Assembly: GCA_032620915.1 (NCBI GenBank)
Contig: CP136052.1
Coordinates: 2,410,001 to 2,474,000, forward strand
DNA from: Oscillospiraceae bacterium NTUH-002-81
Lineage (GTDB): Bacteria > Bacillota > Clostridia > Lachnospirales > Lachnospiraceae
Direction: 5' to 3'
DNA length: 64,000 nucleotides
Below the pieces are notes generated by a model. It saw nothing but the letters and a program-made list of their open reading frames with translations. It was not told where the DNA came from and did not search any database. Position 1 is the stretch's first letter. Every line of letters begins with the position of its first letter. The position numbers and the translations under genes are program-made. Shown piece after piece: positions 10,489 to 57,519 of this stretch.

Positions 10489-13400
10489 TTATCGTTTCCC
10501 TGTATCTTCTGTCTTTCTGATCTGGAAGAAATGCTTCACCAGCGCCTCCTGCCCGGCGTACTGCTCCAGCAGCTCCCGGCCGGTCAGCTCGTCGTGCAGA
10601 TCCTGGCAGATGAGCATGTCGTTAATGAGGTGGTATTTGTCCCGGCCGCCGCTTAAGAACACGTCGTCCCGGCACACATGGGTCTCTTCTGTCTTCTTCT
10701 CCGGCTCTCCCGGGATTTCTTCCGTGATAAAATAGTCCAGCACATCCCCGTAGAACAGGGTGAATTCCCGGTTGTAAACACCGCCGAAAACCTCCGGCAG
10801 CCGTTCCTTGCCATAGGTCTCCTGCTGCTCCGCCCCCACGGTGTTCAGCCGGAAATGCACGTACACCTGCCGTCCCGGCGCGGTGCGGTATTCCACAAAA
10901 TATTTATCCGAAATGAAATAGGGCTCCAGCAGATGTCCCGGCAGCTTCTGATAGAAGGCAAACCGGTATTCCCCGCAGGCCATCTGCTCCAGCAGCTGAC
11001 GCACGGCCTCCTCCTGCCGGAAGATCATGCCCGGATGCTCCGCATAATATTTGAGCAGCGCCAGGCGGCACACATCAGTAGAAAGCCCCTGCTCCCGGTA
11101 CCGGGTCTCCAGCTGCTCGAACAGCCGCCGGTCCGGGTGTTTGCGATCCAGAAAATATTCCCAGGAAAGATAGGAAAGGTAGGCCCGTTCCACCATGCCG
11201 TGACCGCCCTGCTGCAGGTACTGCTTCAACAGGTCAAAGTCCGCCATATCCGCCGTCCCGGTGAACAGCCGCTGCATGAGGATCCGCTCCGTCAGGAAAA
11301 AGGTCTGCAAGTCAAAATTTTCCCCGGCATCCCGGATGCACAGCAGTTCTTCCATGCTGCCCTCGAAATAATCGCACAGATACTGGAGCACCGTCTCGTC
11401 GTATTTGTGCTGCAAAAATGCCCCGTGGCACAGCGCCGTCAGATAGGCATCCTTTTCGTATTCTTTTCGCCGGATGAGCCGCATGCACAGGCGCACCAGC
11501 AGCTTGGGAGAAACTTTTTCATAGCCGTATTCTTTTACCAGCTCGTAGGTCCGGTCGTACATGCCTCTGGAAATGTAGATCTCCACCAGGCGCACCCGGT
11601 CCGCAGCGTTCAGAGACGCCGGTGCAATATCAAACAGGCTCTCCTCCAGAAGCTCCGCGTCATAGTTTTCATAACAGTAGGCCAGAATGTCCCCCCGGAT
11701 CTTTTCCCGGAATTCCGGTTCCAGGAAGGGCAGCTTCACCAGCTTTGTAAACTGCATGATATTGTCGCTGTTGATGACATAATATTCGCTTTTCCCACAG
11801 CAGCGGTACATAAGGATCATGCCGTCCTCCGGGAAAAAGGATTCACACACCGGCAGAAACCGCTCGGTATCCAAAAGCTGCCGCAGTTCGTACTCTTCCT
11901 CGTCCACGTAGATCTCCCCGTGTTCGTCAGTGAATACCAGCTTGCAGTCTTCCATATACATGTTCACATAGGCCCGCTGCTCCTGCACCGGTACCGTCTG
12001 CCAGGTGTCCACAAACTTGTGCACCGCCGTCACCCTGGAAAAATGCCGTCCCCGGCACACCACCTCGTGGAGGAACAGCATGCCTGTCAGGGAACGGGCC
12101 AGCTCCTTGGTGAGCATTTCCTCGTGGAGGAACACATTGTAAAGAAACGCCAGATTCCGGTCAATGTGCTGTTCCATGAGCTGTTCCGTGACAAATTTGT
12201 CGATCTGGGGTTCAAACTGCTGATAAATGTTGCCGTAGGACTTCCGGTACCGGTACAGGTTCGTGTAAAGGAACGCCTTGCGCCGGTAGTCCAGCGTGTT
12301 GTTGTACTGGAAATACATGACCAGCGGCAGCGGCAACCGGGAACGCACATGATCCCCCACCGTATATATGTAATACTCGTACAGACCGGCGATGTTCAGA
12401 TTCCGCTCCACGCCCTCCTTATACCAGCTGAAATATTTCCGCTGCCGGAAGCCGCCCCGCATGAGGCAACTGATGATGGCACCCAGCAGCGTCTCGGAAG
12501 GAAATTTGTCATACAGGCCGGTAAGCAGCCGGATCATGGCCCGGTCGTAGTACCGGCTCTGCTGGGCCAGCGTGCCCAGCTGCATGGCCATCTGCTCGTC
12601 CACCAGGCCTTCCTTTAACGCCCAGAGGTAGATCCGCACCTCCAGCCGCGTCAGCTTTTTCAAAAGCTCCGGTTCCTTTTTCAGCAGAAAAAATCCCTCC
12701 GCCAGCAGCAGGGGACTGGCACAGCCATAGGCGATCTGCTCCCGGATATCCTCCAAAATGCGGGCAGCGCCTGCCTTTCTGTACTCCGGCATCTGCAGCA
12801 GGATCCACAGATACTGCCAGCACTCCCGATCCCGGTCATGCTGGTTCAAAAGATCGCTGCACGCTTTTTTCCGCTCTTCCTCCGAGCCGTGCCTCTGGCT
12901 GAGCCACGTATGGGCTGCTGCCAGCAGCGGATCCTTCATCCGCTTCGGGTCCTGGGCCACCCCGGAAAGGATCCGGGCCGTCTGCTCCTTCTCCCCGGCC
13001 AGATCTAGGAAAAATGCCTGTAACAGGGGATCTGCGCCCCGCAATTTTCCACCGGCTGCCAGCTCATTCATCCCTTTTTGCATCTGTTCCAGCATATGCT
13101 CTTTGGAGGATTTGCCGGTGCGGTAATCCAGCCACTGCTCCGTCATGGAAAGCCGCAGGGCAGAGAGCGTTCTTCTCTGGGCCCGGGCCTTTTTGTGCTG
13201 TTCCTCCTCCGCTTTTCTTGCCTTTACGGTAAAGGTCAGCTCCTGGGTCTTGGTGCGGATGGTGATGGAGCCGCAGTTTAACCCCGCGTGGAGACGGGAC
13301 ACCTCCACCAGGAACGGAAAATCACAGTATTTTCCCACAAAATCCTCGGAGGTTACGGTTTTTTTCCGCAAAATCAGAAACGGCGCATCCACAGAAATGT

Positions 13401-14077
13401 CCCCGTGAAGATATCCCCAGTTCTCTTTTTCCAGCGGGATGCTGCCCTGGAGCGTCTCCTTCATATCGTTCAGTTCCAGGCAGTCCTTACCCAGCCGCAG
13501 GCTGCAGCGCTTCTTTTTATGTACGCCGATAAGAAATTCCTCCATGGCCGCTCGGGTCAGCCCCGTGCGTTTCAGGCACCGATACAGCGTCTTCTGGTCA
13601 TCTTCATTTTCCGAAAAAATCTGTTCAAAAGAATCGGAAATAAAAATCCGGTAGGCTTCCTCATAATCAGAGTTGGCCAGATTCGTAAAATGGAACAGAT
13701 TACGCACATTTCCCATGGAGGAATCGCTTCCCAGCCGCAGGATTTTCACGAAAAACGGAACCTGCACCTCTCCGGCGTCCGTCACCAGCGTCAGGTTCCC
13801 GTTCAGCTCCTCCCCGGCATCCAGACCAAAGCTGCAGATCGTGTAGATGATCTGTGCCTGATCCTCGGTGAGGATGCTCTCCTTGATCTTCACCCGGGGT
13901 GTCGAGCTGTATACGCGGCCGTGAAGTGCCTTGTGGTTGCGCACTTCCAGCGTGATGCTCCCCCTCGTAGATCTCATTTTTGCCCATGCGGACAGAAATA
14001 CACGCGTCCTCTGTATTCAGTTCGGGCCTTTCATATAGAAACTGCCCCTTCGCCAGCTGTTCTACTACCTGTCTCAT
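10489..14077 (-). CDS. DUF5717-like giant helical-repeat protein (broken by a 1-base insertion)
   Basis: About 1,195 residues once a C5 run at 13960-13964 is shortened by one base; this joins MRQVVEQLAKGQFLYERP...NEIYEG to SITLEVRNHKALHGRV. Residues about 15-110 and 190-260 look like beta-sandwich modules. The remaining roughly 900 residues are an alpha solenoid of degenerate repeats. There is no signal peptide or transmembrane helix. I believe it is the DUF5717 family, always beside DUF5716. It is the first gene of the operon, transcribed from a promoter at 14321-14350 through the structured leader copy. The role is unknown; size and architecture suggest a scaffold. Confidence 0.8.
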
Positions 14078-14151
14078 CTGTTTGCTTTCCCTGCCAATTC
14101 CTGATTTGCCGATTGCTTTTTTCTTGCGTTGTGTATAAAATATGTAGATAT

Positions 14152-14316
14152 ACCATACGAATTGCTACATACTCCGTATTCTCGCAATTCTGCTCACCAT
14201 TCGGATATCGTGTGGCATACGCCCCACTTTTATCCTCATATTGAGCAAGTCGCTAAGCCTCTCAATCACTTCTATGCAAGCATATCGTGATTTCAGGCTT
14301 CCGACTTTTGGTATCG
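14152..14316 (-). ncRNA. Structured leader element, copy 1 (5' of the DUF5717-like gene)
   Basis: Read on the minus strand, this copy forms three consecutive hairpins. P2 is nested: AAGTCG/CGACTT, AAGCCT/AGGCTT, AATCAC/GTGATT, ATG/CAT, capped by CUUG. P3 is GGAT-AAAA-GTGGGGC/GCCACAC-G-ATATCC. P4 is GAATTGC/GCAATTC enclosing ATAC/GTAT. A weak closing helix (ATACC/GGTAT) flanks them. The same architecture with different stem sequences occurs at 28064-28230 and 57353-57519. It starts where the promoter at 14321-14350 should initiate, so it forms most of the 5' leader of the operon. Confidence 0.8.
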
Positions 14317-14320
14317 TACT

Positions 14321-14350
14321 AGTATAACACTTTTTCCCACTGCCGCGCAA
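14321..14350 (-). promoter_or_regulatory. Predicted promoter of the DUF5717-DUF5716-TPR operon
   Basis: On the minus strand, TTGCGC (14345-14350) and TATACT (14321-14326) are separated by 18 bases. The predicted start, near 14314, falls at the 5' edge of the structured leader. The divergent PLP-enzyme gene begins only 40 bases away, so its own promoter must overlap this one or the leader. Confidence 0.6.
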
Positions 14351-26910: not shown

Positions 26911-28015
26911 CTACAGCTTTGTCCGGGCGGATACGCTTAAGGCAATGCCCATTTCCGCCAGCAGAAAACAGACTGAGGTGCCGCCGTAGCTGACGAAGGG
27001 CAGCGTGATCCCGGTATTGGGGATGGAATTGGTCACCACCGCAATGTTCAAAATGACCTGGATGGCGATGTGGCCCATGATGCCCGCTGCTAGCAGCGCC
27101 CCGAACAGGTCTTCCGCGTGCATGGCAATGACCATGAATCGCCAGATCATCAGGGAAAACAGTAGGATCAGCGCCAGGGCGCCCACCAGACCCAGCTCCT
27201 CACAGATGATGGAAAAGATCATATCATTCTGCGCCTCCGGCACGAAGCCCAGCTTCTGCATGCTGCTGCCCAGCCCCTGGCCGAAAACACCGCCGGAACC
27301 GATGGCGTACAGTCCCTGGATCGTCTGGTAGCCCTTCTCATAATTTTCCGGATGCCGCCAGATCATGAGCCGCTCCAGGCGGTAGCTTTCCATGCCGAGA
27401 AAAACCGCCACCAACCCTGCGCCTGCGGCCCCCATGAACACAAAGGGCACATACCGGGGCGTGGAAAGAAAAATCAGCAGAAACCCGATGCCCAGGATGA
27501 TGACGGCGGTGCTTAAGTTGTTCGTTCCCACCAGCGCCACGATGGGCAAAAGCAGAAGCAATACGCCAATCAGAGAGCGCATTTTTTCCATCCGTCCCTT
27601 TTTTCGGTCCACCGCCCAGGCCAGCAGCAAAATCACCGCTACCTTTGCAAATTCCGCCGGCTGGAAGGACAGCGGGCCCAGGGCCAGCCACCGCTTGGAG
27701 CCGTTATACTCCCGGCCAACCACCAGCACCAGGGAGCTTAACACCAGCGACAGCCCATAGGCCGGGACTGCCAGGAACCGCAGCAGCCGGTAATCCAGCC
27801 GGGAGACCGCCACCATGGCCGCCAGCCCCAGGCTGGTGGCAAACAGCTGTTTTTTTCACATAATAACCGGCATCCCGGAACTTCACATAGCCGTTCCAGG
27901 CGCTGGTGCTGGCCAGCATCACCAGCCCGAATGCGGTAAGTATACAAACCAGCACGAACAACACGGTGTCCCGGCTTCCTCTGTGCTTCGCGTAAAACTC
28001 CGGCCGCATACGCAT
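26911..28015 (-). CDS. ftsW: Septal SEDS glycosyltransferase FtsW (broken by a 1-base insertion)
   Basis: Polytopic peptidoglycan polymerase working with a class B PBP. The first frame carries RDTVLFVLVCILTAFGLVML and VKFRDAGYYVKK. After removing one base from T7 at 27850-27856 it continues QLFATSLGLAAMVAVSRLDY to the end. Family motifs are KRWLALGPLSFQPAEFAK, the catalytic-loop region, and NTGITLPFVSYGGTS near the C-terminus. The repaired length is about 367 residues with about ten membrane helices. I start at the ATG at 28015; the site upstream (AGGGAAA) is weak. A structured leader copy lies directly 5' of it. Confidence 0.93.
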
Positions 28016-28063
28016 CCCGCTTTCCCTTATTTTAATAATGTTAGGAACAAAAACCTCGACTTT

Positions 28064-28230
28064 GATGCCTACGGATTGTTCCGTGCTACGCACTCCCGCA
28101 ATCCTCCCCACTATTCGCATATCGTGGGATTGTCATCCCACTTTTATGCTCATATCGGGGGCGGGTCCCAAGGTCTTTCGCCCACTGATGAACAAGTTCA
28201 TATGGGCTTAGACCTTTTGACCCTGGCATC
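28064..28230 (-). ncRNA. Structured leader element, copy 2 (between murD and ftsW)
   Basis: Begins four bases after the murD stop. On the minus strand a closing helix GATGCC/GGCATC encloses three hairpins. P2 is nested: GGGTC/GACCC, AGGTCT/AGACCT, GCCCA/TGGGC, ATGAA/TTCAT, with a CUUG loop. P3 is GCAT-AAAA-GTGGGAT/ATCCCAC-G-ATATGC. P4 is GATTG/CAATC enclosing GTGC/GCAC. Stem sequences differ from the other two copies while pairing is kept; the internal loop RAAAG/CGATAT and the linker GAAT are conserved in sequence. There is no T run after P4, so it is not a simple terminator. Confidence 0.82.
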
Positions 28231-28232
28231 AT

Positions 28233-29645
28233 TTAAATGGACTTTACAAAGTCCTTGAACACTTTTCCGCGTTCCTCATAGTTCTTGAACATGCCCCAGC
28301 TGGCGCAGGCCGGTGACAGCAGCACCGCATCCCCGGGCTGTGCCCGGTCCTTGCACCAGGTGATGGCTTCTTCCAGGGAATCCGCATAGGCGCAGGCAGT
28401 GAACCCGCAGCGCTCGGCTGCCGCACGGATCTTCTCCCGGGTGGCACCGATGAGCACCAGTCCTTTTACCTTGCCATCAAAGGCCTGGATCCACTCCTCA
28501 TACTCGGAGTTCTTGTCATAGCCGCCGCCGATGAGCCAGGTGGGCCGTGTCATGGCCTGGATGCCCTTGATGGCCGCATCCGGGTTGGTTCCCTTGGAAT
28601 CGTTGTAATAGGCCACACCGTTTTTCTCTGCCACGAACTCGATCCGGTGCTCCACCGCCGTGAACCGGCGCAGAGTGCCGCGGATGCTGTCCATGGGCAC
28701 ACCCAGCTCCAGAGAAATGGCAACGGCTGCCATCACATTTTCATAATTATGCCGGCCCAGCAGATTTAATTCCGAAATATCGCACACTTTCTCTGTCTGC
28801 CCATCCCGGCGGATGAAAATGCTCTTACCGTCAAACCAGAGGCCTTCCTCCAGCGGCTGTACCCCGGAGAACCAGATCACCCTGGTTTTCAGCGTCTGTC
28901 CGAAAGCGCGCAGCACCTCATCCTCGTAGTTGAGGACGCAGGCATCCGCCGTGCCCTGGTTTTTCGTGATATCTTCCTTGGCCTTTATGTAGTTTTCCAT
29001 GGTGTGATGCCGGTTCAGATGATCCGGCGTGATGTTGAGGATGGCGCTGACCTGGGGATGGAAGGTGTCAATGGTCTCCAGCTGGAAGCTGGAAATCTCC
29101 GCCACCGTCACAGAATCCGGACGGGTCAGGGCTGCCGTGCTGGTGTAGGGAATGCCGATGTTGCCCACCACAAACACGCTCTCGTAATAATCCTTCATGA
29201 TCTCGCCGGTGAGGGCTGTGGTGGTCGTCTTTCCGTTGGTGCCGGTGATGGCCGCGATCCGTCCTCTGGCAAACCGGTATGCCAGCTCTACCTCGCCCCA
29301 GATGGGCAGGTGGGCTGCCAGCGCCGTGACAAAGGGCAGATCGGTGGGCACGCCGGGGCTTAACACCACCAGAGACAGCTCCGCCTCCCAGTCCGCCGCA
29401 AAATCCCCGAGACGGACCGCAAAGCTGCCCTCTCCCACCGTTTTTTCCGGGATCCCGGCCGCTTTTTCTGCTTCCAGCAGGGCCGCTTCCTCTGCCTGTA
29501 CCTTTTCTGTCAGCGTCTGGACATCCAGACTGCCGTTTCCGTCATACAGGATCACCTGTTTTCCCTGGGATAAGAGCAGGGCCGATGCCGCAATGCCGCT
29601 CTTTCCGCCGCCTACCACCAGGACTTTTTTCTCAAATACATCCAT
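28233..29645 (-). CDS. murD: UDP-N-acetylmuramoyl-L-alanine--D-glutamate ligase MurD
   Basis: Cytoplasmic ATP-dependent ligase adding D-Glu to UDP-MurNAc-L-Ala. The N-terminal Rossmann loop VVGGGKSGIAASALL, the ATP-binding AITGTNGKTTTTALTGE near residue 130, ILNITPDHLNRH and YNDSKGTNPDA are all present. The length of 470 aa fits. I start at MDVFEKKVLVV, 12 bases after a GGAGG; the frame remains open 34 codons upstream into mraY. The stop is followed immediately by the structured element preceding ftsW. Confidence 0.97.
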   Translation of the reverse strand: MDVFEKKVLVVGGGKSGIAASALLLSQGKQVILYDGNGSLDVQTLTEKVQAEEAALLEAEKAAGIPEKTVGEGSFAVRLGDFAADWEAELSLVVLSPGVPTDLPFVTALAAHLPIWGEVELAYRFARGRIAAITGTNGKTTTTALTGEIMKDYYESVFVVGNIGIPYTSTAALTRPDSVTVAEISSFQLETIDTFHPQVSAILNITPDHLNRHHTMENYIKAKEDITKNQGTADACVLNYEDEVLRAFGQTLKTRVIWFSGVQPLEEGLWFDGKSIFIRRDGQTEKVCDISELNLLGRHNYENVMAAVAISLELGVPMDSIRGTLRRFTAVEHRIEFVAEKNGVAYYNDSKGTNPDAAIKGIQAMTRPTWLIGGGYDKNSEYEEWIQAFDGKVKGLVLIGATREKIRAAAERCGFTACAYADSLEEAITWCKDRAQPGDAVLLSPACASWGMFKNYEERGKVFKDFVKSI

Positions 29646-29662
29646 GGAACCTTTTCCTCCTT

Positions 29663-30619
29663 TTACATTGCAAGAAGCGCTGCGAGACACAGCAGCGCTG
29701 TGATGATCGAAAATACTGCCACCACCCGGGTCTCTGACCAGCCACACAGCTCGAAATGGTGATGGATGGGCGCCATCTTGAAAATCCGCTTGCCGTGGGT
29801 TGCCTTGAAATAGCTGACCTGGATGACCACAGACAGCAGCTCCACCGCATAGATAAAGCCCACGATGGGGATAAACAGTGGCATCTGCATCATGTACGCC
29901 GTACCTGCCACAAAACCGCCCAGCGCCAGGGAACCCGTATCTCCCATGAACACGCTGGCCGGGTACACATTAAACAGCAGGAAGCCCAGCAGGCCGCCGG
30001 CCACCGCACAGGTGATGGGATGGATGCCGCTGTTGGTACCGATAGCCACCACGCTGAAAAAGGTAGCCACCAGAACGGTGACGCTGGAGGACAGGCCGTC
30101 CAGTCCGTCCGTGAAATTTACTCCATTTACCGTAGCAAGTACGACGATGAACAGCATGGGAATGGCAAGAATGCCAATGTTCCAGTAATAGCCGTGGGAA
30201 AACGGCACCAGCAGTGTCAGCTCCACATCGGTGTAGTGAATGAGGTAATAAGCGAAGATCGCTGTCACCACGATCTCCCCGATGAGCTTCTGCCAGGGCA
30301 GCAGACCGTCGGAGCGCCGGAGCACCACTTTCAGGTAATCATCCAGAAAACCGATGATGCCAAAGCCCAGCGTCAGGAACAGCACCGGCACGATCTTCGG
30401 ATACTGCCGCAGGTAAATAAGGCAGGTGACCGTGATGCCGATGAGAAACAGGATGCCGCCCATGGTGGGGGTTCCCGCCTTCTTCAGATGGGATTTGACG
30501 CCCAGCTCCCGCTCGGTCTGGGATAATTTCAGATTCCGCAGAAACGGGATGAGCACCGGGCCTAACACCGCGCTGACCACAAAGGAGATAAATACCGGAA
30601 GGATAAATGAATAATTCAT
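29663..30619 (-). CDS. mraY: Phospho-MurNAc-pentapeptide-transferase MraY
   Basis: Ten-helix membrane enzyme that makes lipid I on undecaprenyl phosphate. GVKSHLKKAGTPTMGG is the conserved first cytoplasmic loop, GFLDDYLK holds the catalytic Asp pair, NFTDGLDGLSSS the next conserved Asp, and MAPIHHHFELCGWSET the His-rich final loop. The length of 318 aa is normal. It lies between the second PBP gene and murD, as in most dcw clusters. Confidence 0.97.
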   Translation of the reverse strand: MNYSFILPVFISFVVSAVLGPVLIPFLRNLKLSQTERELGVKSHLKKAGTPTMGGILFLIGITVTCLIYLRQYPKIVPVLFLTLGFGIIGFLDDYLKVVLRRSDGLLPWQKLIGEIVVTAIFAYYLIHYTDVELTLLVPFSHGYYWNIGILAIPMLFIVVLATVNGVNFTDGLDGLSSSVTVLVATFFSVVAIGTNSGIHPITCAVAGGLLGFLLFNVYPASVFMGDTGSLALGGFVAGTAYMMQMPLFIPIVGFIYAVELLSVVIQVSYFKATHGKRIFKMAPIHHHFELCGWSETRVVAVFSIITALLCLAALLAM

Positions 30620-55848: not shown

Positions 55849-57310
55849 TTATCTGCCTGCCAGAATGTCTGCGATGAGATCCCGCTCATCCATGGGATGC
55901 TTCACGCCCCTGATCTCCTGATAATCCTCATGTCCCTTGCCCGCCAGAACGATCACGTCGCCGGGCTGGCCGTGGTGGATGGCGTAGGCAATGGCCTCCC
56001 TTCCGATCCGGGATCTCCACATATTTGCCATCGGTTTTGGCAATGCCCACCTTGATATCGTCGATGATGGCCTGGGGCTCCTCGTCCCGGGGATTATCCG
56101 ATGTGATGATCGTCAGATCCGCCAGACGGCCGGACACCTCGCCCATCTCATACCGGCGCAGCTTGGAGCGGTTGCCGCCGCAGCCAAACAGGCACACCAG
56201 ACGCTTGGGATTGTATTCCTTTAAGGTGGTTAAAAGACTTTCCAGGCTCATGGCATTGTGGGCGTAATCGATCATCAGCGTAAAATCATCTGACACTTTG
56301 ATAAGCTCGATACGGCCCTTCACCTTCGCCTGCTTCAGGGCATAGAGAATATCCTGATCTGCCACGCCGAAATGCCGGCAGACGGCAATGGCCATCAGGG
56401 AATTGTATACGCTGAACCGGCCCGGCAGGTCGATCTCCACATCCAGATCCATGGAACCGGACACGTGATAGGCCACGCCCAGATATCCGGCGCCGTTGAC
56501 CAGATGGACATTTTCCGCCCGCAGGGACGCCTCCGTGGAAAAGCCCACCGTCTCCAGACGGCACGTATGGCCCTCCAGCACCTGTTTCCAGTGAGGATCG
56601 TCCACGTTGACAATGCCCACCTTACACTGGCGGAACAGTCTGCCCTTGCACTCCATGTACTCTTCAAAGGAAGCGTGCTCATTGGGGCCGATGTGATCCG
56701 GTTCAATATTCGTAAACAGACCCAGCTCAAACAAAATCCCGGCTGTCCGGTGCAGCATGAGGCCCTGTGAGGACACCTCCATCACTGCGCAGTCACAGCC
56801 CGCATCCGCCATCTCCCGCAGATACTTCTGTACCGTCACCGACTCCGGCGTGGTATTGCTGGATGGAATTTTCTTTTCCTTAATAATCGTTTCAATGGTG
56901 CCGATCAGTCCCACCTGATGCCCCGCATGTTCCAGGATGGATTTGATCATATAGGTGGTGGTAGTTTTTCCTTTCGTTCCCGTCACACCGATGACCGGAA
57001 TCTGCTCCGCCGGGTAATCGTACCAGGCCGCCGCGATAAGCGCCATGGCATACCGGGGATCCTCCACCCGGATGACTGTCACGCTGTCCGGCACCTCCAC
57101 CTCTTTGGAAACCACCAGCACAGCGGCTCCCTGCTCCGCCGCCTGGGCGGCAAACTTATGTCCATCTGTCACGGCACCCGGGATACAGAAAAACAGGCAG
57201 CCCGGCGTGATCTTCCGGGAATCGTTCACAATATCCGTCACTTCTGTGTCAATACTGCCCTGTATGCATGTATAGGAAATCCGTTCCAGTAATTGATTCA
57301 GCTTCTTCAT
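55849..57310 (-). CDS. murE: UDP-MurNAc-tripeptide synthetase MurE (broken by a 1-base insertion)
   Basis: Adds the third stem-peptide residue to UDP-MurNAc-L-Ala-D-Glu. The main frame has VTDIVNDSRKITPGCLFFC, ATP-binding GVTGTKGKTTTTYMI, SSNTTPESVTVQKYL and SDNPRDEEP. The DNPR form is the signature of meso-diaminopimelate-adding enzymes. The C-terminus (EAIAYAIHHGQPGDVIVLAG, KGHEDYQEI) is reached after removing one base from CCC at 55998-56000. The repaired length is about 486 residues. The start is ATG 57310, seven bases after GGAGG. It is outside the dcw cluster, at the head of the priA operon, behind a structured leader. Confidence 0.94.
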
Positions 57311-57352
57311 GGTCATTCCTCCCCGATACTGATATCATTTCATTACATATCA

Positions 57353-57519
57353 TTATAACAGATTGCTCCGTGCTGTGCACTCCCGCAATCTTCCGACAGC
57401 ATTCGCATATCGCGAAGCATGCGCTCCGCTTTCATGCTCATGCTGCGGGCGTGTCTCAAGTCCTTTCATCCGCTTATGAGCAAGCTCATGCGGATTCATG
57501 CCTTTCGACACTGTTATAA
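57353..57519 (-). ncRNA. Structured leader element, copy 3 (5' of murE)
   Basis: On the minus strand TTATAACAG/CTGTTATAA closes the element. P2 is GTGTC/GACAC, ATCCGC/GCGGAT and ATGAG/CTCAT with a CUUG loop. P3 is GCAT-GAAA-GCGGAGC/GCTTCGC-G-ATATGC (one G-U pair). P4 is GATTG/CAATC enclosing GTGC/GCAC. Compared with copy 2, at least five stems have changed on both sides while keeping pairing. It ends about 43 bases before the murE start. Confidence 0.82.

Follow-up and report, generated by a model that had tools for sequence, protein, structure and literature searches.

The Clostridiales-1 RNA family RF01699 is probably the core of a non-autonomous DNA transposon of Lachnospiraceae

Results and discussion

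RF01699 copies in the window and their neighbouring genes

The window, a stretch of 64,000 nucleotides from Oscillospiraceae bacterium NTUH-002-81 (Lachnospiraceae), had three Rfam matches above the curated gathering cut-off (48 bits), all to the full model of RF01699, the Clostridiales-1 RNA. The copy under study lies between murD (28233..29747, minus strand, upstream of the copy; Pfam Mur ligase domains, MurD-like_N) and ftsW (26911..28015, minus strand; PF01098 over 26914-27816, split in two frames). Its core occupies 28063..28231 on the minus strand (169 nt; 141.3 bits, model 1-166, cmscan) and is made up of a closing helix (TGATGCC/GGCATCA) and three hairpins. A second core, at 14150..14314 (minus strand, 165 nt, 102 bits), lies 5′ of a DUF5717 gene (10489..14077, minus strand; PF18984/PF18983 over 10492-13977, with one frame change near the start). 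The third, at 57353..57519 (minus strand, 167 nt, 117.8 bits), lies 5′ of murE, which is downstream of it (55928..57316, minus strand; Pfam Mur ligase domains). Read from the sequence, the distance from element to start codon is 72 nt for the DUF5717 gene, 47 nt for ftsW and 36 nt for murE. A first-pass annotation of this DNA had placed the copies 5′ of these three genes, and the Pfam matches agree. It had also reported three minus-strand copies; these were confirmed with borders off by 2, 1 and 0 bases, but the genome holds 45 copies above the cut-off and not three.

The fold plan proposed in that annotation (closing helix, long hairpin with a CUUG loop, hairpin with an internal loop and hairpin enclosing a 4-bp stem) was seen in all three copies, with z between -7.1 and -8.7. 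The core between murD and ftsW folds at -84.6 kcal/mol (z -8.67), the one near the DUF5717 gene at -64.0 kcal/mol (z -8.46) and the one near murE at -74.0 kcal/mol (z -7.08); in each case 0 of 200 dinucleotide shuffles were as good.

The copy near the DUF5717 gene sits in a divergent gap, the other side of which is an aminotransferase gene (Pfam aminotransferase domain). By-eye comparison placed a -10-like box, TATACT, of a putative promoter at 14321..14326 (minus strand). The copy starts 6 nt downstream of this box, and by the same comparison all three congeners have TATAAT at the same place.

The N-terminal part of ftsW lies in a different frame from the remainder. At the split (27704-28015) a stretch of seven A exceeds by one base the length that the congeners suggest, and the additional A may come from a homopolymer error in the assembly. 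The DUF5717 gene has a similar feature, five G (about 13950-13977) where the congeners have one fewer, and the frame is shifted near the start. Taken together, the two frame shifts suggest homopolymer errors in this assembly.

Prior knowledge and spread of the family

The element had been annotated as possibly undescribed, with a hit to a named Rfam family given in advance as a result that would overturn the claim, and all three copies are such hits. Clostridiales-1 was published in 2010 by Weinberg et al. (PMC2864571), with Clostridiales and the human gut as its source. A table in that paper grades it as a probable RNA that is probably neither cis-regulatory nor a riboswitch, and neither "transposable" nor "mobile" appears in the main text. 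Rfam lists the type as "Gene; sRNA", and the catalogue assigns no function. The literature searched held no statement of RF01699 as mobile; supplementary files and most subscription journals were outside the reach of this search.

In the window genome (G000, 3.62 Mb, a single contig) we counted 45 copies above the cut-off and 73 matches at E <= 0.001. Among 120 genomes of the family, this one included, 53 had a match above the cut-off and 65 had any match at E <= 0.001. In this survey 21 candidates were scored per genome, so its copy numbers are minimum values. For the genus of the window genome, copies above the cut-off numbered 45 in G000, 32 in G122, 3 in G121 and 1 in G120. Muricomes intestini DSM 29489 (G038) had 86. 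A plasmid of Butyrivibrio fibrisolvens carries a copy at 75.8% identity. Copy numbers this patchy and prone to bursts agree with a mobile element.

RF01699 units were also seen arranged head to tail, three at locus L031 (G000:C1:906547-907068) and four at G038:C4:37247-37842. The latter array has a period near 146-150 nt, and its adjacent units overlap at their ends.

The full unit, its ends and target-site duplications

M. intestini copies are nearly identical and have clear edges, and their full unit is 185 bp long. It starts at the Rfam start (TGATACCAGGGTCAAAAGG), extends 31 nt past the Rfam end via a small hairpin and ends in ...CCTTTTGACCCCTACATCA, an imperfect inverted repeat of the unit start. 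The inverted terminal repeats are TGATRCCAGGGTCAAAAGG at the 5′ end and the complement of TGATGTWGGGGTCAAAAGG at the 3′ end, with variants such as TGATAGAAGCGTCAAAAG in G111, and they are present in most copies of the ten genomes inspected. Most of 60 copies from G111, G002, G027, G074, G042, G110, G047, G102 and G008 have the same anatomy, the exceptions being truncated, tandem or variant-ended. In M. intestini the end pattern occurred 98 + 102 times, against 0 + 0 for a reversed-pattern control.

The M. intestini sample comprised 73 of the 86 copies above the cut-off, of which the 57 with a recognisable 3′ end were used for duplications. An exact duplication of 5-8 bp was found at 46 of these 57 (about 2.6 expected from shuffled partners). 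It was exactly 6 bp long in 36 of the 46, and the target is AT-rich, about ATNNTA. Duplicated 6-mers exceeded shuffles in seven of eight other genomes tested: G111 (9/10 observed, 2.7 shuffled), G002 (7/10, 1.2), G027 (6/10, 2.0), G042 (4/5, 1.8), G047 (3/5, 1.2), G008 (3/3, 1.0) and G074 (4/10, 1.3). None was found in the five G110 copies. Duplications were not above chance in G122 (1/30, 0.3 shuffled) or in the window genome (6-mers 1/45, 1.3 shuffled; 5-mers 4, 3.6 shuffled). Since G110, G122 and the window genome have no excess, empty sites and kinship carry the case for movement there.

Of the 45 copies in the window genome, two showed a 3′ repeat when up to 4 substitutions were allowed, and three when up to 5 were. 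Only the copy between murD and ftsW and one other (L008) combine a 3′ repeat at <=4 substitutions with a matching duplication, so most copies in this genome look old. At the murD-ftsW copy the Rfam span (28063-28231) does not cover the whole mobile unit, the remains of which reach to about 28036. Its degenerate 3′ end (about 28036..28062, minus strand; ...TTTTTGTTCCTAACATTA) was identified by the pattern with <=4 substitutions and by comparison with intact 3′ ends. The target-site duplication is TTAAA, with its 5′ copy at 28232..28236 (minus strand), overlapping the murD stop codon, and its 3′ copy at 28031..28035 (minus strand).

As in a MITE, the unit is short and multi-copy, has no internal transposase gene and possesses inverted ends and target duplications. 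A MITE with target-site duplications was another result that the first-pass annotation had named as telling against it, and the M. intestini copies are of this kind.

The commonest unit sizes in the loci fetched were 38, 71, 185, 195 and 206 bp, and shorter units ending in the same way (38, 71 and 77 bp) are common. Units of 38, 71, 77 and 214 bp with similar ends were seen at L142-L144, L406, L407 and L412 in M. intestini and at L146-L148 in G047. The 38-bp unit looks like the 3′ hairpin of the full element, and for this reason the full element may be composite. A subfamily in G122 (L151-L180) has very different ends, AAAGCCC...GGGCTTT. Several of its copies extend as ATA/TAT in the flanks, and in many the 5′ segment is directly repeated after the closing helix. 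At L021 (G000:C1:111810-111969) the closing helix extends 8 more perfect bp into the flanks (GATTCGTA / TACGAATC).

Search for an autonomous partner

End-pattern searches in six genomes detected no transposase sharing the ends among the matches listed, and no autonomous partner was found in at least 119 stretches of named genomes. Two scans of viral contigs for the element gave 3 and 0 matches and no partner. No recurring ORF was common to 68 orphan ends. By eye, we saw no transposase among the ORFs fetched for 9 of 14 G047 regions and no transposase-like ORF in 11 M. intestini regions. Two candidates were rejected. Among end pairs spaced 0.45-7 kb apart a single one had a duplication (L322, 3.5 kb), and it was two separate MITEs around ordinary genes; a 1.5-kb end pair (L131) was, by eye, two MITEs flanking a methyltransferase-like gene. 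The transposase may have diverged ends, may have been lost or may reside in unsampled genomes.

Empty sites in congeners

At the murD-ftsW junction the element is absent from all three congeners (G120, G121 and G122), in which about 11-15 element-free nucleotides separate the murD stop from the apparent ftsW start. At the DUF5717 locus the same three congeners have AAAAAGTGYTATAATTCATTATAA, where the window has AAAAAGTGTTATACTAGTACG and then the element, so this site is also empty in three of three. The murE site lacks the element in both assessable congeners, G120 and G122; the G121 locus was not counted because of a contig edge. An Rfam scan of the eight congener loci gave no RF01699 match above the cut-off. 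All three window copies thus have empty orthologous sites, as expected of a MITE. A leader should be present upstream of orthologous genes, and for these three genes it was not (in congeners, and for murE also in further genera, by eye).

Orientation and position relative to genes

Gene calls behind the orientation counts came from a simple caller. In codirectional gaps of the window genome, 21 copies were sense and 6 antisense to the next gene (p = 0.006; 19:6, p = 0.015, with a tandem array collapsed), which supports the first-pass annotation, whose three copies lie 5′ of genes. Another 17 copies lay in divergent gaps and one in a convergent gap. Sense and antisense copies numbered 5 and 14 in G122 (p = 0.06) and 17 each in M. 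intestini. Divergent gaps held 31 of the 71 classified M. intestini copies and made up 4 of the 63 other gaps of the same loci, although this background, drawn from the 3-kb loci that contain the copies, is not independent of them. The 60 copies with 500-bp flanks were left out of the orientation counts, most of them being undetermined; those of G027 comprised ++ 2, -- 4, divergent 1, convergent 2 and undetermined 1. Overall, most copies lie on the promoter side of a gene. The constant orientation to a gene that a leader should have was not seen in the three genomes (21:6, 17:17 and 5:14), and a fixed orientation is no property of the family. The designation as leader RNA is therefore not supported, as orthologous leaders of assessable congeners lack the element and its orientation to genes varies between lineages.

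Half of the window-genome copies with a sense gene downstream (19/38) end 19-60 nt before the called start. Promoter-like pairs were found upstream of 6 of 45 copies in the window genome (3.75 +/- 1.74 in shuffles) and of 18 of 60 in a mixed set from other genomes (8.9 +/- 2.8). We do not claim promoter targeting, as the excess of pairs is confounded by the AT-rich target. Survivorship or local recruitment may underlie the excess of sense copies in the window genome.

Conservation of the fold

The alignment for covariation contained 46 sequences, with the Rfam line as structure. The window genome supplied 30 of its 45 copies, mostly those with better scores, G122 supplied 3 of the 30 that had been fetched, and ten other genomes supplied 13. 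In this alignment 86.0% of cells were paired and 56 of 61 pairs had a double change, so the compensatory stem changes first noted among the three window copies hold more widely. The covariation score was 0.421, against 0.171 for shuffled and 0.081-0.134 for slid alignments. A consensus structure with covarying pairs, as required of RF01699, is thus present. Conservation was 0.997 for the tandem G-A, 0.94 for CUUG and 0.89 for the internal loop of hairpin 3, with stems at 0.51-0.85. The first-pass annotation had listed both CUUG and the RAAAG/CGAT inner loop of hairpin 2 as conserved; this is correct for the former, but the latter reaches only 0.71 in the wider family, the same level as the stems.

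Mutations among recent copies were counted in 67 M. intestini copies of exactly 154 nt each. Distinct changes numbered 64 at 110 paired sites and 31 at 44 unpaired sites (p = 0.37), and those giving GU and AC numbered 23 and 22. A GU excess seen in 20 copies picked by covariance-model score (13 GU, 2 AC) was dropped on this larger set. By occurrences, unpaired sites carried more changes (168 at 44 sites, 147 at 110 paired sites), because unpaired variants are more often shared. Private changes ignored pairing, with 41 of 330 possible at paired and 13 of 132 at unpaired sites (p = 0.52). In a post hoc split, changes common to at least two copies were rarer on paired sites (23/330 vs 18/132, p = 0.03), and the shared and private splits differed at p = 0.049, also post hoc. 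Pair-keeping changes showed only a trend (13:10 among shared and 15:26 among private changes, p = 0.19). As private mutations ignore pairing while the fold persists between lineages, insertions are probably not guarded one by one; spreading lineages would keep the fold, which probably matters for propagation. Between lineages we counted 85 GU cells and 37 AC cells; shuffles, reflecting composition alone, gave 209:167, and G122 gave 8:8. From these sequence comparisons we favour a fold kept as RNA rather than as a DNA strand.

Interpretation and rival explanations

We suggest that RF01699 is, very probably, the core of a non-autonomous DNA transposon (MITE) of Lachnospiraceae. Because the duplication size is nearly fixed and the ends are inverted, we infer a DDE-type transposase, supplied in trans, that would recognise the inverted ends and move the unit. 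Copies in the window genome would be mostly old, with the folded core left behind, frequently inside a 5′ UTR. The core and its near-invariant unpaired motifs (tandem G-A, CUUG, GGGA/GGA) would be under selection on propagating lineages, as RNA or as single strand, and its conservation would not be due to service for each downstream gene. The preponderance of sense copies in the window genome would reflect which old insertions were tolerated, some perhaps having been recruited. What is new is the full extent of RF01699, its inverted ends, target duplications and empty sites; the RNA family itself was known. A bolder reading, tentative and on balance doubtful, is that propagation of the transposon requires the folded RNA or folded single strand that it encodes. 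The core motifs would then bind the transposase or a host factor, and only copies with an intact fold would found new copies. If so, RF01699, now catalogued as an orphan sRNA, would in fact be a transposition RNA.

Part of the covariation could arise at the DNA level, as template switching during replication corrects inverted repeats and so yields double changes without selection on RNA. This mechanism has been described for RNA hairpins (PMC8794818), palindromic relatives of 38 and 71 bp exist, and 4 of 66 distinct pair changes in M. intestini counted in its favour. We consider it unlikely, since switching does not explain why unpaired motifs are the most conserved (the hairpin-2 inner loop, at 0.71, excepted), internal loops have not been corrected away and GU exceeds AC between lineages (85:37, with the shuffled and G122 ratios given above). 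A 5′ leader or attenuator serving the host, transcribed ahead of the gene, with a fold that influences termination, translation or stability and owes its spread or retention to this role, would account for the sense orientation of 21 of 27 codirectional window-genome copies (p = 0.006) and for the 19 of 38 ending 19-60 nt before a start; the promoter-like pairs (6/45 vs 3.75) point weakly the same way. However, orthologous leaders of congeners lack the element, orientation is 17:17 in M. intestini and 5:14 in G122, private changes in recent copies ignore pairing, and the family was scored as probably not cis-regulatory in the table of Weinberg et al. (PMC2864571), all of which makes this reading improbable.

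The Rfam type "Gene; sRNA", the stable compact fold and the conserved loops would suit a small RNA that acts in trans and is encoded by many gene copies. This is still harder to accept, as copy number per genome ranges from no hit to 86, private changes ignore pairing and the ends behave like transposon ends. Copying by some reverse transcriptase in trans, as a SINE-like bacterial element, would agree with a folded core that is kept between lineages as copies decay, but duplications of nearly fixed size (36/46 exactly 6 bp) and inverted ends make such retroposition very improbable indeed.

On the MITE reading, a family that Rfam lists as an "sRNA gene" behaves as mobile DNA, reaches 86 copies in a single genome and inserts chiefly on the promoter side of genes, here next to cell-wall genes. 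If correct, this reading would explain why "leader" signals recur in Lachnospiraceae. It would also offer a simple test for other orphan RNA families, in which the sequence outside the model is examined for inverted ends and duplications and for empty sites. The case further cautions that covariation alone does not demonstrate a host function. Why a MITE should retain a multi-hairpin fold with near-invariant loops is a question that can be tested.

Comparison with known systems

REP/REPIN elements are dispersed intergenic hairpins that are moved by RAYT transposases and are not known to leave a target duplication. The RF01699 element likewise consists of dispersed hairpins between genes, but it differs in its target duplication, mostly of 6 bp in M. 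intestini, where insertion does not follow the duplication-free REP/RAYT mode. The Clostridiales-1 model has the same sequence and structure as the window copies, but ends with the closing helix and does not reach the 3′ repeat. BOX, RUP and SPRITE of Streptococcus pneumoniae, as described in PMC3049150, are likewise small, dispersed, folded, multi-copy elements with terminal repeats, co-transcribed with genes and regarded as likely MITEs. They differ in sequence and host, and IS partners have been proposed for them from end similarity (ISSpn2 for BOX; PMC3049150), whereas none was found for RF01699 in the sequences searched. A review of prokaryotic MITEs (PMC10969869), whose text as available holds no word beginning with Clostridi, Lachno or Rfam, describes features shared by the element: short length, inverted ends, direct duplications, AT-rich intergenic targets and stem-loop transcripts. 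Unlike these MITEs, the RF01699 element has a structured core with near-invariant unpaired motifs common to several genera.
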